Below, in pieces: positions 24,239 to 30,824 of a DNA stretch of 64,000 bases (positions are counted from its first letter, which is position 1; each line of letters starts with the position of its first letter). The translations under genes and the position numbers were made by a program. The stretch comes from Maricaulis sp. (GTDB lineage Bacteria > Pseudomonadota > Alphaproteobacteria > Caulobacterales > Maricaulaceae), in the NCBI RefSeq assembly GCF_017642925.1, contig NZ_JAEPOL010000001.1, positions 124,001 to 188,000 of the forward strand. The letters run 5' to 3'. The notes below the pieces were generated by a model. It saw only the letters and a program-made list of their open reading frames with translations, made no database searches and was not told where the DNA came from.

Positions 24239-24492
24239 GACGCCAGCATAGATGAAAAAAGCGGTGGTCGGCGAGGGACGCTCTTGTGCCGGAAATGGCA
24301 CAGGCATCCACTTCGCCTCCCCCACCACGGAAGGGTGTCCGGCCTGCGGACTCGGCGCTAACCAAGCAATTTCGGTACCAGAATTCGTGATGGAAATACG
24401 GGACACTTCGCTATGCTTAAGCAAATATTGCCGGGCACATCCTGCCGGTGGGCAGAATTTGCCTTGCGACCGGAAAAGGGCATGATCGCACC

Positions 24493-25179
24493 ATGAGCGC
24501 ACAGAAAACGATTCTGATCGTGGACGATGACGAGGATCTGCGCGAGGCGCTGGTCGAACAGTTCGCGCTTCACGAGGAATTCCGCACGCTCAGCGCCGGC
24601 ACGGCCGGCGAAGGCATGGCAACGGCGAAGGCCGAACGCGCCGATCTGGTCCTGCTCGATGTCGAACTGCCGGACATGGACGGCCGCGAGGCCTGCCGGC
24701 TGATGCGCAAGAACGGGGTGTCTGCACCGGTCGTCATGCTGACCGCCCAGGATACCGATGCCGACCAGATTCTCGGTCTGGAATCCGGCGCCAATGACTA
24801 TGTCACCAAACCGTTCAAATTCTCCGTCCTGCTGGCCCGCGTGCGCGCCCATCTGCGCAGCCACGAGCAGAGCGAGGACGCGGTCTTCCGCATCGGCCCC
24901 TACGAATTCCGGCCGGCGATGAAGCTGTTGCTGACCGCCGACGAGAAAAAGATCCGGCTGACGGAAAAAGAGACCAATATCCTCAAATACCTCTACCGCG
25001 CCGGCGGCAAGCCGGTGCCGCGCGACGAGCTGTTGCACGAGGTGTGGGGCTATAATCCGGCCGTGACGACGCACACGCTGGAAACCCACGTCTACCGGCT
25101 AAGACAGAAGATAGAGCCCGATCCGGCCCATGCGCGGCTGCTGGTGACGGAAAGCGGCGGATACCGGCTGCAGGGCTGA
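24493..25179 (+). CDS. OmpR-family response regulator, CenR-like
   Basis: The 228-residue regulator has a receiver domain (VDDDEDLREAL acidic pocket, LLDVELPDMDG with the phosphoacceptor Asp, MLTAQD Thr, VTKPF Lys) and a C-terminal winged helix (RLTEKETNILKYL ... HTLETHVYRLRQKIE). The FALHEEFRTLSAGTAGEG receiver segment and the near-origin location resemble CenR of Caulobacter, which with the CenK kinase controls envelope integrity and is essential there. No sensor kinase lies in the window. ATG 24493 gives the standard N-terminus. Confidence 0.8.
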   Translation: MSAQKTILIVDDDEDLREALVEQFALHEEFRTLSAGTAGEGMATAKAERADLVLLDVELPDMDGREACRLMRKNGVSAPVVMLTAQDTDADQILGLESGANDYVTKPFKFSVLLARVRAHLRSHEQSEDAVFRIGPYEFRPAMKLLLTADEKKIRLTEKETNILKYLYRAGGKPVPRDELLHEVWGYNPAVTTHTLETHVYRLRQKIEPDPAHARLLVTESGGYRLQG

Positions 25180-25194: not shown

Positions 25195-28100
25195 TCAGGG
25201 CTCGTCCGTTCCGCCTTCCCAGATACCGAAACAGGCGGTGAAGACCAGCAGATCGCCCTGCTGCAGCGTGTCCTGCTCGATCTTGTCGTTGTAGCAGGTG
25301 CGGAAATGGAAATCGAAATCGCCCTTGCGGTTGCGCAGCGTGTCGCGCTTGGTCACCGGCAGCCAGCCGACTAGGTGCAGGCCGGCATGGCGTGAACGGA
25401 CCAGGCTGGCATAGCTCTGTCCGATCAGCGGATCGTCGGCCGCCAGCTCCTTCATGTAGAGATGGGTGCCGTCGCGCATATTCATAACGGCGATCAGGAA
25501 ATCGAGAACCGAATTGCCGTCGAACACGTCCTTGACGAGGAAGCGTTCGACCAGCGTCGCGCTGGGGATGACCGCATTGGCGCCCGCGCCGGCCTGGCTG
25601 GCAGTCTCGCGGACAGGCAGATCCTGTCCCTGTGAGAATTGCGGACCGAGAAAGGCGTCGCGGTCCTCGCGGGCGATCGCCTCGGCGATGATCTTGCAGG
25701 TCCATCCGCTGCTGTCGGCGATCTGCCGGATCAGCTTGGTGGCCAGAAGCGTGTGGGCATCGGCCGCACGCACCCGGGCCGAGCTGGACGCATTGCGCTT
25801 CTTCTTCGCGTCGGCCAGGACGATGGCATAGTCGAAAGCCTCCACGCCGCAATCCGTCCTGAAACTGTCGAGGCGTTCGGCCAGGACATTTCGGGTCAGG
25901 AAGGGAGTCGACTCGATCGTGACAACGCAGATCTGCGGGTCGCGGTGAAAGGCGCGCAGGTTCTTTTCCAGCCGGTCGACATGTTCTTCCGAAGCATAGA
26001 TCAGGATCCGCGTGCCCTCGGGGCGGGAAAAATTGAACAGCTCGCGGGGGATCGGGGCTGCGTCCAGAACGGTCTGGCGATGCCCGGGCTTCAGCACCGT
26101 GTCGCGGGTGTGGGCGGCGTAGATGATCCTGTCATTGCGCGCGGGCACATGGTCATAGCCGGCCTCGCGGGTCAGCGAGATGATCGGACCGCCATCCAGA
26201 ACTTCGGCGTCATAGACAGCCTCGCGCTTGAGATCGCCGCGGACCACGCCGATCAGGTTTGCCCCGCTGCGCCAGATCTCGCGTTCGACATCGCACAGCG
26301 TCATTTCCGGGTCATAGCCGGGGTGCCGGTCGCACAATTCGCCGTATTCGACGGCGTAGATTTCGTCGAACGCGTCATAGGTCAGCACTTCCAGCAGATA
26401 ATCCACCATCAGCGGATGGATGGTGGAGAGCGCGGCGGCCTTGGCGATGAAGAGGTCCGGCGTGATCAGCGTGTCGCAGCCGAAGCTCGCGAAATGGTCG
26501 GCATTCTGGTTGAAATTCAGCTCGGCCGAGATGCGGATCTCGGGGTTCAGGCGCTTCAGATTCATCGCCGTCAGGATAGCGCCGATATTCTGGCTTTCCC
26601 GGCGCTCGTAATCGGCCAGGATAATGGCATGCGAGGCGCGCCTGGCGCCGGCTTCCTCGAGCGTCTTGCGGTCGGCGCTGTCGCCGCGCCGGAAGCGGAC
26701 CCGTTTCGGATTGAAATGATGCCCGTCCATCGGGCTCGCATCGCCCGACTGGGCCACCATGCACACCTTGTATCGCTCGGCTGCGTCCTGTCCCGTCAGC
26801 GAGTAGATCACGCCGGAGAGATGCTCGTTCCAGCCGCACACCAGGATGTGGTCATGCCATTTCGTGCGGGCCCAGCCGGCCGCCTTGGCGGCACGCTGCC
26901 GGCCGATGAAATTGCTGGTGACGATAATCGCCGTGATCGGTCCGCCAATGCCCAGCAGGGCCAGGCAGGCCACCATCACCCGGCCCGGCGGGCTCAGCGG
27001 GTAGGCGTCATTCTCGGTGAAGCCGCTGGCCACGAAGGCCAGCATCCAGACAATCCCTTCCATGAAGGCGAGATCGCCGAACGGATTGTCCAGGTTGAAG
27101 GCCCGCGCGTGCATCGCCTCGGCTGTGCGCAGGGCGATAAAGGCGCCGCACAGGATGATGGCAAACAGGCTGATACCGATGAACCAGGGGCTGGGCCGGG
27201 CCCACAGGTCGATCGCCTGCTGCACGCCCGGCAGGCGCCGGTCCCGGGTCCGCGCTTCGCCCGTGCGGTCATAGGTCGTGCGCATGGAAATTGCCGCGAC
27301 GCTCGAGGCCAGCAGCGCGCCCCAGGCGATCAGCCAGAGCCAGTAACGCGGCGGCGCAGCGGCATGGCCCTGTTCGACCAGGACCGCGCGTGCGGCCGGA
27401 TGAAAGTCCAGCGCCAGACGCGTCACGAAATCCTCGGGCGGATACAGCCCGCCGACATCCTGCAGGTCGGGCCAGATCGCGAGGAGTGTACCGGTCAGTG
27501 CTCCGACTGCCTCGCGCGGCGCATCCCGCCGGGCCAGCAGCACGGCGCGTGTCGCCAGCGACGCCTGGATGCGTCCGTCGATCTCCAGGCCGGAGCTTTC
27601 GTAATAGGGGTTCTCGTTGGCCAGCTGGGTGATGATCGAGGGCGGCACGGCGAGGCGCGAGAAGCGGTCCGCATCGAACTCGAAATTCTCGCCGGCCGTC
27701 ACGAAGACGGCATCCACCGTATTGTCGCCCAGCGCCGTGAACGCATCGCGTATGCCGTCGCTGGCCGGCAGATAGTCGACGCCTTCACGCAGACCGGCCG
27801 CGGCCAGCACGTCGCGCGCATTGATCGTGCTGCCCGATCCGGGCACGCCGATATTGATGCGGCGTCCGCGCAGCTCGCCGAACAGATCCGGCGCATTGTC
27901 TTCCCGGCGCACAAAGACTTGCACGAATTCGGGGAAGAGCGGCGCCACAGCCGCAAAGTCCTGCCAGCGTTCCAGCCCGTGGCTGCCGGTAAACTGGTGA
28001 TAGGCGAGATCGTTCTGGGCAATGGCGAAGGCCAGCTCACCGCCGCGCAGCCCGCGCAGGTTTTCCAGGCTGCCGGCGGTCGGGGCGTTGCAGACCGAGC

Positions 28101-28299
28101 CTTCGAGCCCGGCCTCGATCAGGCGCTCCGCGAAGGCGTGATAGCGCCCGCCCGGCTCGCCGGACCCGATACAGATCCCGGCGGCGGCCGCACTGTCCGT
28201 ATCGGTCTCCGTGCTCGTCGCGGAGCCGGAGCCCGTCTGGGCCAGCGCACCGCAGACCGCGAGAATCCATACCGTTGCCGCTGTCAGGAAAATCCGCAT
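25195..28299 (-). CDS. Fusion of TAXI-type solute-binding domain, ion-channel-like membrane region and tandem RCK/TrkA-N-like domains
   Basis: A 1,034-residue single frame starting at ATG 28297-28299. Residues 1-21 form a signal or anchor. About 40-310 resemble TAXI-family TRAP solute-binding proteins (ICIGSGEPGGRYHAFAERL, GELAFAIAQNDLAYHQF, GSGSTINARDVL). Hydrophobic segments follow near 317-336, 369-390, 410-425 and 438-464. The pore-like stretch between the last two reads VASGFTENDAYPLSPPGR, so the K+ channel filter TxGYGD is absent. From about 481, NAD-binding folds HDHILVCGWNEHLSG and RILIYASEEHVDRL appear, as in RCK or CASTOR-type channels. Inference: a periplasmic ligand gates a cytoplasmically regulated channel. 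Transport and ion specificity are unknown. It converges with the CenR-like gene. Confidence 0.8.
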   Translation of the reverse strand: MRIFLTAATVWILAVCGALAQTGSGSATSTETDTDSAAAAGICIGSGEPGGRYHAFAERLIEAGLEGSVCNAPTAGSLENLRGLRGGELAFAIAQNDLAYHQFTGSHGLERWQDFAAVAPLFPEFVQVFVRREDNAPDLFGELRGRRINIGVPGSGSTINARDVLAAAGLREGVDYLPASDGIRDAFTALGDNTVDAVFVTAGENFEFDADRFSRLAVPPSIITQLANENPYYESSGLEIDGRIQASLATRAVLLARRDAPREAVGALTGTLLAIWPDLQDVGGLYPPEDFVTRLALDFHPAARAVLVEQGHAAAPPRYWLWLIAWGALLASSVAAISMRTTYDRTGEARTRDRRLPGVQQAIDLWARPSPWFIGISLFAIILCGAFIALRTAEAMHARAFNLDNPFGDLAFMEGIVWMLAFVASGFTENDAYPLSPPGRVMVACLALLGIGGPITAIIVTSNFIGRQRAAKAAGWARTKWHDHILVCGWNEHLSGVIYSLTGQDAAERYKVCMVAQSGDASPMDGHHFNPKRVRFRRGDSADRKTLEEAGARRASHAIILADYERRESQNIGAILTAMNLKRLNPEIRISAELNFNQNADHFASFGCDTLITPDLFIAKAAALSTIHPLMVDYLLEVLTYDAFDEIYAVEYGELCDRHPGYDPEMTLCDVEREIWRSGANLIGVVRGDLKREAVYDAEVLDGGPIISLTREAGYDHVPARNDRIIYAAHTRDTVLKPGHRQTVLDAAPIPRELFNFSRPEGTRILIYASEEHVDRLEKNLRAFHRDPQICVVTIESTPFLTRNVLAERLDSFRTDCGVEAFDYAIVLADAKKKRNASSSARVRAADAHTLLATKLIRQIADSSGWTCKIIAEAIAREDRDAFLGPQFSQGQDLPVRETASQAGAGANAVIPSATLVERFLVKDVFDGNSVLDFLIAVMNMRDGTHLYMKELAADDPLIGQSYASLVRSRHAGLHLVGWLPVTKRDTLRNRKGDFDFHFRTCYNDKIEQDTLQQGDLLVFTACFGIWEGGTDEP

Positions 28300-28372
28300 C
28301 AACCCGTCCCCCCGGCGCACAGGATGCGTCGGAAAACGGGCCGATTACAAGAGATTGGGTGGAAGTTGGCGG

Positions 28373-29185
28373 TCAGCCGCCGATCCGCAGCACCACCGGG
28401 GCGTGATCCGACGGCTTCTCCCAGCCGCGCACATCTTCCCAGATCCTGAAAGCCTCACGTCCGCCGGCCAGGGCGCGCTCGCGCACGGCGGGAGCGGCCC
28501 AGATATGGTCGAGACGGCGGCCGCGATTGGCGGCTTTCCAGTCGCGGGCGCGGTAGCTCCACCAGGAATAGACCTTCTCGTCCATCGGGATCAGCTCACG
28601 CGCCACATCGGCAAAATCGCCGGCCTGGCGGATCCGCTCCAGGGCTTCGGTCTCGACCGGTGTGTGGGAGACCACTTTCAGCAATTGCTTGTGCGACCAG
28701 ACATCGTGCTCATAGGGCGCGATGTTGAAATCGCCGACCAGGACGAGCGGCGGGTTCTCGGCGGCGCGGGCCTTGAAATAGGCCTCGATGCGGTCGAGGA
28801 AGCCCAGCTTGTGGGCAAAGCGCGGATTGATCGCCGGGTCCGGTTCGTCGCCGCCGGCCGGGATGTAGAAATTGTGAAGCTCGATGCCTTCCACCATCAC
28901 CCGCTGGTGACGGGCTTCCGCCTTCGGGCACAGGTCTTCATCGCCCAGATCCTCCAGCGGGAGTTTCGAGGCGATCGCGACGCCGTGCATCCCCTTCTGG
29001 CCGCGCACGTGGAAATGCCGGAACCCCATCTCGCGGAAGGCCTCTTCCGGGAATTGCTCGTTCAGGCACTTGATCTCCTGCAGGCACAACACGTCCGGAT
29101 CGGCCTGGCTGACCCAGTCGGCCACAAGCGGTGCGCGCAGGCGCACGGAGTTGATATTCCAGCTGGCGAGCGTGAAAGCGGTCAT
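28373..29185 (-). CDS. xthA: Exodeoxyribonuclease III / AP endonuclease
   Basis: The 270-residue Mg2+-dependent nuclease of the EEP fold has SWNINSVRLRAP at the N-terminus, LQEIKC (metal-binding Glu), GVAIASK, VGDFNIAP and the terminal catalytic SDHAPVVLRI. It cuts DNA 5' to abasic sites in base-excision repair. The lolA-xth neighbourhood near ftsK is common in Alphaproteobacteria. It is followed on the same strand by the fusion gene 73 bp downstream. Confidence 0.95.
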   Translation of the reverse strand: MTAFTLASWNINSVRLRAPLVADWVSQADPDVLCLQEIKCLNEQFPEEAFREMGFRHFHVRGQKGMHGVAIASKLPLEDLGDEDLCPKAEARHQRVMVEGIELHNFYIPAGGDEPDPAINPRFAHKLGFLDRIEAYFKARAAENPPLVLVGDFNIAPYEHDVWSHKQLLKVVSHTPVETEALERIRQAGDFADVARELIPMDEKVYSWWSYRARDWKAANRGRRLDHIWAAPAVRERALAGGREAFRIWEDVRGWEKPSDHAPVVLRIGG

Positions 29186-30158: not shown

Positions 30159-30824
30159 TTACCGGTTGCGGCGCGAATCCCGGCGGTCTTCCGCCTCCGG
30201 AATGACAAACAGGCGCGGGTTCAGCCGCATGCCCGTCTCGACATTGTTCAGGCTGACGCGGGTGATCTCGCCCATCGCATCGGTCACGAACCATTCGCGC
30301 AGCTCATAGCTGGGCTCGGCAAAGACGAACATGATCTCGCCCGGCATTTCCTCGCTGGGGTCGCGCAGCGTGACATAGAGAAAGCCGAACTCGCTCTCCA
30401 TGCCCACCAGTTCGGCGTCACGGGCGATATCGATATCCTCTTTCAAGAGCCACCAGAGCGGCGTCGAGCGCAGCGGGCCGCGATCGACCGTCTCCAGGGC
30501 GCTGTCCTCGATCGCGACGGTCGTTCCGTCGGCAATGATGCGGATCGGCGTCGGCTCGTCATACTCGAAGCGCAGGCGGCCGGGACGCGCCATGGCCAGT
30601 TCGCCCGTCGCGGACGAACCGTCGGGGGCCACCTGCACGAACTCCGCACGCAGGGTGTCGATACCGTTGAGATAGGCGTTGATATCGGCCAGCGCCGTTT
30701 CGCGGTCCAGGCCGGACGGCGCCGTGCCGGCTTCTTCGGCCGCCGGCGTTTGCACGGCCTCGGCGGGAGCGTCGGCCGCAGGGTCCTGCTGCAGCAGGGC
30801 GAGGGAGAAAAGCAGAGCGATCAT
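30159..30824 (-). CDS. lolA: Outer-membrane lipoprotein carrier protein LolA
   Basis: The 221-residue periplasmic chaperone ferries lipoproteins from LolCDE to the outer membrane. It has an N-terminal hydrophobic signal (MIALLFSLALLQQ), a long Ala/Pro/Glu linker, then the LolA core: LADINAYLNGIDTLRAEFVQV, GELAMARPGRLRFEYDEPTP, IIADGTTVAIED and LFVIPEAED. The start ATG 30824 gives a short signal peptide. The setting near ftsK and xthA supports the assignment. Confidence 0.9.
   Translation of the reverse strand: MIALLFSLALLQQDPAADAPAEAVQTPAAEEAGTAPSGLDRETALADINAYLNGIDTLRAEFVQVAPDGSSATGELAMARPGRLRFEYDEPTPIRIIADGTTVAIEDSALETVDRGPLRSTPLWWLLKEDIDIARDAELVGMESEFGFLYVTLRDPSEEMPGEIMFVFAEPSYELREWFVTDAMGEITRVSLNNVETGMRLNPRLFVIPEAEDRRDSRRNR

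Follow-up and report, generated by a model that had tools for sequence, protein, structure and literature searches.

A fusion of a TAXI solute-binding domain, a channel-type pore and RCK domains in Maricaulis and its relatives: a candidate ligand-gated channel

The stretch of DNA analyzed here (herein referred to as the window) comprises 64,000 nucleotides of Maricaulis sp. (NCBI RefSeq assembly GCF_017642925.1, contig NZ_JAEPOL010000001.1, positions 124,001 to 188,000), and at 25195..28299 its minus strand carries a coding sequence of 1,034 codons plus stop in which a TAXI solute-binding domain, a channel-type pore and an RCK region follow one another. An earlier sequence-only reading had described one uninterrupted frame, and indeed it runs unbroken from ATG to stop; the ATG at 28299 has a G-rich stretch upstream of it, and a longer start at a GTG (28320) is possible. 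From the N-terminus, and all on the minus strand, the protein begins with a hydrophobic signal peptide (residues 1–21, 28237..28299; hydropathy 3–21, predicted helix 2–21), followed by the TAXI domain (residues 41–311, 27367..28179). A first transmembrane segment, TM1 (residues 319–339, 27283..27345), is placed by hydropathy (about 321–339), a predicted model and charges, would join the periplasmic domain to the cytoplasm, and leads into a basic, putatively cytoplasmic linker (residues 340–369, 27193..27282). The pore region comprises the outer pore helix TM2, equivalent to S5 (residues 370–401, 27097..27192; hydropathy 372–390, MthK profile match and predicted model), a pore helix and filter loop (residues 412–436, 26992..27066; hydrophobic stretch 407–428, alignments and predicted model) and the inner pore helix TM3, equivalent to S6 (residues 437–472, 26884..26991; hydropathy 441–459, MthK profile match and predicted models). 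The hydrophobic segments reported by the sequence-only reading are thus recovered as the signal peptide, TM1, TM2 and TM3, with the pore-helix stretch in addition. The remainder consists of RCK1 (residues 482–737, 26089..26856; Pfam and MthK matches) and a putative RCK2-like half (residues 764–1024, 25228..26010), for which predicted models show alternating strands and helices, fold searches give tandem-RCK matches and no sequence match was found.

Eight proteins from eight genomes share this unbroken TAXI–pore–RCK architecture, which we regard as real with near certainty. Full-length relatives are 95% (L002), about 60% (L003 and L004), 60% (L098), 47% (L046) and 32% (L005 and L045) identical to the window protein, and a further record (L011) appears to duplicate that of L002. 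An error of assembly or a frameshift that joined two genes has a negligible probability: no point in its support was found, all eight genomes, across five genomic settings, have unbroken frames, and the fused TAXI domains group together. An artefactual fusion was accordingly rejected, and the sequence-only claim of a single gene holds. In a tree of TAXI domains (42 rows), the eight fused domains form one group (98/98) on long stems, for which a single origin of the fusion would be the simple reading. An antisense open frame of 936 amino acids also lies over the fusion gene (window 25639–28449, plus strand); GC content here is 63–67%, shadow frames occur in the relatives too, and the frame is most likely an artefact of codon bias.

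Carriers of the fusion are few. A scan of relatives returned five full-length proteins among 61 genomes, plus five TAXI-only matches; the scan of the organism's own family gave 6 of 137 genomes and that of the family of genome G040 gave 2 of 62, whereas samples at order, class and phylum level gave 5 of 299, 1 of 385 (the own genome) and 2 of 398, the last with five weak RCK channels in addition. There is overlap among these samples, and with two or three candidates scored per genome in the large scans, misses are possible. A genome-contig scan with the single fusion protein, in which phyla other than its own were hardly covered, returned one near copy. No relative was found among phages and plasmids with the post-TAXI part as query (one Priestia K+ channel matched at 30% cover), nor among 99 pattern stretches in viral contigs; eight long-frame stretches in the class, inspected by eye among the matches listed, were ordinary TAXIs and one tandem TAXI with no channel part. 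Two carriers of one genus, G529 (L046) and G1071 (L098), have fusion genes that are only about 51% identical and lie in different places, and L098 shares more identity (58–66%) with the copies found in the window's genus, a pattern that hints at horizontal transfer.

All parts of the fusion are maintained. Between the window protein and L002, the closest pair, the Nei–Gojobori rates of nonsynonymous (dN) and synonymous (dS) substitution are 0.027 and 0.263 overall, and by region 0.035 and 0.240 (TAXI), 0.005 and 0.121 (TM1–TM2), 0 and 0.335 (pore and TM3), 0.005 and 0.209 (RCK1) and 0.019 and 0.306 (the rest). With dN far below dS throughout, every one of the five parts is under purifying selection; more distant pairs are near saturation, and there the proportion of nonsynonymous differences is still below that of synonymous ones.

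The TAXI assignment made by the sequence-only reading, including its suggested profile comparison of residues 40–310, is well supported. The NCBIfam model TIGR02122 matches residues 11–311 (96.4 bits, cut-off 84.35), the Pfam family NMT1_3 (PF16868) matches residues 44–311 (E 8.7e-22, 78.5 bits, cut-off 27) and is matched by all eight family members, phmmer aligns TAXI structures with residues 41–264, and the protein has the TAXI clamshell fold. In VcGluP (PDB 8S4J), Tyr45 and Gln93 are described as critical residues for glutamate (PMC11574862). In the HMMER alignment, these map to Y53 and Q95, both present in all eight fused proteins, and the cleft residues E124 and G156 are likewise invariant, with S77 in six and T in two. 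Other VcGluP positions are altered in the fused set: S40 (E in five, Q in two, D in one), H123 (F in all eight), D157 (S in six, T in two), Y200 (V in seven, M in one), M201 (T in all eight) and G203 (A in four, G in two, Q in two). The key cleft residues are thus intact, and a small organic or amino acid is the probable ligand, which need not be glutamate. Glutamate was not adopted as the named ligand, since the Tyr–Gln pair is near-universal in the TAXIs sampled and other cleft positions differ from VcGluP.

The fusion gene is the sole NMT1_3 match in its genome. A separate TAXI-like family was also observed (L006:769–2112, L007:775–2118, L008:664–1971, L009:643–1989 on the minus strand and L010:1327–2796 on the plus strand), whose frames of 436–490 amino acids, when read by eye, all show the same order of a hydrophobic segment at the N-terminus, a TAXI part, a second hydrophobic segment and a charged tail, and which are perhaps membrane-anchored sensors; a further frame of 692 amino acids (L090:3381–5456, minus strand) holds two TAXI-like stretches in tandem.

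One may ask whether the protein is a solute uptake facilitator, the TAXI domain capturing a solute and passing it to a pore that lets it through, much as TAXI presumably does for the symporter GltS. TAXI domains otherwise serve transport, TAXI–GltS fusions exist according to PMC12344293, and a filter of non-K+ type leaves the permeant unconstrained. Against this, the homology of the membrane part is with an RCK-bearing channel pore and not with an elevator transporter, and a channel cannot concentrate a scarce solute. Nor are we aware of any case in which a binding protein delivers its solute to a four-fold channel, and altogether we consider the uptake function quite unlikely. As for a TRAP partner, DctM is present in all seven carriers searched (G1071 was not among them) and in none of them on the contig that carries the fusion, two of the seven contigs being short (5 and 13 kb). 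The sequence-only statement that the protein is not a TRAP permease is borne out, the membrane part being a channel-type pore with no DctM fused to it or on the contig of the gene.

Homology of the pore to RCK potassium channels is supported by several comparisons. A five-member profile of the post-TAXI part matches MthK from the pore through RCK (E 7.4e-12) and BK from before the pore into RCK1 (E 1e-5 to 4e-5), and hhalign against five K+ channels from the phylum scan (L048–L052) gives 99.2% probability over residues of about 395–732. In the comparison suggested for residues 317 to the end, the clear sequence match is to MthK; the best sequence match to the CASTOR group has an E-value of 0.57. 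As the sequence-only reading had stated, the pore-like stretch, in which VASGFTENDAYPLS is read directly, lacks the TxGYGD filter of K+ channels. HMMER against MthK, MAFFT and hhalign agree on one register in which GFTEND (residues 426–431, 27007..27024, minus strand) stands opposite TVGYGD, a motif kept in all five K+ channels compared. The eight members carry four filter variants, FVASGFTENDAYP (four members), FVVSGLTLQDTLP (two), YVSSGFTENDAFP (one) and FVASGFTENNAYP (one), and share the loop pattern SG[FL]T..[DN]..P with GFTEND, GFTENN or GLTLQD as the filter. Because both K+-channel filter glycines are replaced in this register, K+ selectivity of the usual type is unlikely; the pore is homologous to RCK potassium channels yet, judged by sequence, would not be K+-selective. 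Positive charge is found between TM1 and TM2, with seven K/R in the linker (340–371), and behind TM3, with five, a distribution by which the TAXI domain should be outside and RCK inside. The TAXI domain is contiguous (44–311) and the pore elements stand in K+-channel order, upright by the charges.

Loss of the K+ filter could also mean that the protein does not conduct, and is a membrane receptor that has kept the channel frame and signals through its RCK half. To our knowledge, most RCK channels, CASTOR apart, keep the K+ filter, which counts in favor of such a receptor. The filter loop is nevertheless conserved (SG[FL]T..[DN]..P in all eight members, without a nonsynonymous change in the closest pair), and no gene is common to all settings beside the fusion gene. 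CASTOR, an RCK channel without TVGYG, moreover conducts (PMC6697748). We therefore hold a nonconducting receptor to be very unlikely.

The RCK claim of the sequence-only reading is likewise confirmed, with Slo-like_RCK (482–590) and TrkA_N (526–614) both above the Pfam cut-off and matched in all eight members, and with a phmmer match of MthK to residues 416–623. Dinucleotide-binding loops carry the motif GxGxxG. RCK1 starts HILVCGWNE (HVVICGWSE in MthK) and lacks this motif, and RCK2 has no sequence match in the PDB, so that the two NAD-binding Rossmann segments of the sequence-only reading could not be upheld. Regulation by NAD was not adopted, owing to the CGWNE start of RCK1. Nucleotide binding by the RCK region is possible, given that NAD-, ADP- and ATP-bound RCK proteins (GsuK, KtrA) are among the fold matches of the predicted models. 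Alignment of the RCK2 half with RCK1 revealed shared border residues only and no clear kinship; a single RCK is recognized by sequence, and the second appears in predicted folds alone, where CASTOR/POLLUX-type rings are matched at low scores (6o7a, 6o7c, 6o6j and 7vm8; TMt 0.35–0.41).

These features raise the possibility that the protein is an RCK-gated cation channel whose real opener is cytoplasmic Ca2+ or a nucleotide, the TAXI domain serving only to tune, tether or assemble it. RCK1 is among the best conserved regions (dN 0.005 in the closest pair and the lowest of the regions against L004), the TAXI domain has the highest regional dN of the closest pair (0.035), and nucleotide-bound RCK proteins occur among the fold matches. 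Counterparts of MthK D184 and E210 (D563 and E593) are present in all eight members. The Ca2+-site residues of MthK named in PDB titles are D184 and E212, and we take E210 to be a further one, with which the spacing is consistent. At the E212 position, however, all eight members have N or A, leaving the MthK Ca2+ site incomplete, and the TAXI cleft residues remain conserved. An opener on the RCK side alone is thus, in our judgment, unlikely.

The genomic surroundings offer no constant partner. A CenR-like response regulator gene (24448..25179, plus strand), which we place outside the system, is convergent with the fusion gene, and an exonuclease III-like gene (xthA, Exo_endo_phos; 28373..29185, minus strand) forms the other edge of what is elsewhere an empty site. 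Whereas all 19 genomes of the genus, including that of the window, have cenR, 17 of the 19 have the cenR–xthA junction without the fusion gene, which lies there only in G000 and G008. The gaps at the empty junctions, taken from alignment ends, are under 90 bases in 14 genomes and 236–649 bases in three; in L070 the contig end cuts xthA. G012 and G013 are among the 17 and yet carry the fusion gene elsewhere, adjoining an RlmL-like gene (read by eye in G013). Further settings lie between a Flavoprotein-family gene and a DUF2390 gene (G529), between MFS and Na_sulph_symp genes (G1071) and near rpoD, with some further frames in common (G040 and G530); altogether, in five carriers besides the window's own genome, examined with about 19 kb of surroundings, the gene is away from cenR–xthA. 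The sequence-only reading had pointed to the CenR neighborhood, and with 17 of 19 junctions empty and five carriers holding the gene elsewhere this lost its meaning; a functional link to CenR or exonuclease III was rejected, as cenR and xthA stand together without the gene in those 17. No neighbor common to all five genomic settings was found, and the fusion gene appears to move as a single gene. The rpoD shared by G040 and G530 and a LolA gene shared by the window and G529 count against a pure "no link" reading of the neighbors. The LolA genes lie within about 2 kb of the fusion-gene start (window 30162–30824 and G529 L065:13670–14572, both minus strand), are 41% identical and form the only close neighbor match between these two settings. 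Because lolA is a housekeeping gene, we take this match as chance.

We hypothesize that the gene encodes a single-gene inner-membrane channel gated by a periplasmic ligand, a reading to which we assign slightly better than an even chance; the ligand-gated channel already proposed by the sequence-only reading is plausible. Each subunit would comprise a periplasmic TAXI clamshell, TM1, an upright TM–P–TM pore unit and tandem RCK domains, and a tetramer of such subunits would enclose a single pore, with a sensor from each subunit on the outside and an RCK gating ring on the inside. Binding of a small organic or amino acid would close the clamshell, which would pull on the outer pore helix by way of TM1 and the basic linker, the RCK ring would supply a second, cytoplasmic signal, and the open pore would pass cations without K+ selectivity. 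Several observations weigh against this reading. The Tyr–Gln pair is also present in 28 of 29 solo TAXIs of the class (in the remaining one, the Tyr position is a gap), a sample biased in that it consists of the best matches to the fusion family, and the conserved pair therefore marks an intact cleft and is not proof of any ligand. In L098, asparagine replaces the outer aspartate of the filter. No PDB sequence matches the last 355 residues at E 10, the single-chain AlphaFold models are modest (mean predicted local distance difference test scores of 59 and 69), and although the Slo and CASTOR fold matches span both RCK halves, their template modeling (TM) scores are low (0.2–0.4) and their root-mean-square deviations large. 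The alignment behind the second model held five K+ channels, favoring its MthK match, and the long branches of the TAXI tree may mislead.

The broader proposal, tentative and a little short of an even chance, is that bacteria, independently of GluR0 and the ionotropic glutamate receptors (iGluRs), joined an intact TAXI domain to an upright pore that has a novel filter (SG[FL]T..[DN]..P) and an RCK ring behind it, producing a dual-sensor channel of non-K+ selectivity that an outside metabolite opens and an inside signal tunes. Carried by a few bacteria related to Maricaulis, it would apparently be a new design for a channel that a small molecule opens. As iGluRs are thought to descend from a binding protein that became fused to an inverted K+ channel (PMC6385376), a second, differently wired bacterial solution would, if true, imply that fusions of this kind have arisen repeatedly, extend the roles of TAXI proteins beyond transport and provide a compact natural channel that has a single sensor on either side of the membrane. 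The filter is itself a natural experiment, in which a K+-channel pore loses the TVGYG signature and the loop stays under selection.

No description of a TAXI–pore–RCK protein was found among the literature matches listed (at title and abstract level, with bioRxiv and most subscription journals outside the scope), in keeping with the sequence-only statement that no characterized protein of this architecture is known. Among characterized systems, MthK, BK, Slo and GsuK share with the fusion protein a TM–P–TM pore followed by RCK; the window protein and MthK have LGIG in the inner helix and the RCK start CGW(N/S)E in common, and the tandem RCK of Slo and GsuK is resembled at the fold level, with low TM-scores. 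The fusion protein differs from these channels in lacking the TVGYGD filter, in its additional N-terminal transmembrane segment and periplasmic TAXI domain and in a second RCK that is undetected by sequence. The plant channels CASTOR, POLLUX and DMI1 have a pore that, as here, lacks TVGYG, together with a tandem RCK ring, which the low-scoring gating-ring fold matches (6o7a, 7vm8) recall; CASTOR nonetheless has a different filter, AD(S/A)GNHA, in a Ca2+-selective channel (PMC6697748), carries no solute-binding protein and reaches only E 0.57 against the fusion profile. VcGluP, TtGluBP and TAXI–GltS share the TAXI fold and the key Tyr and Gln, and TAXI–GltS is the published example of a TAXI fusion whose membrane protein is not of the TRAP type (PMC12344293); the partner there is DctQM or GltS, whereas here it is a channel-type pore with RCK. 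GluR0 and the iGluRs are likewise a bacterial-type solute-binding clamshell covalently joined to a K+-channel-type pore, but in them an inverted pore interrupts the binding protein (PMC6385376, PMC2950845), whereas the fusion described here has a binding protein of another family, intact and ahead of an upright pore, with RCK in addition.

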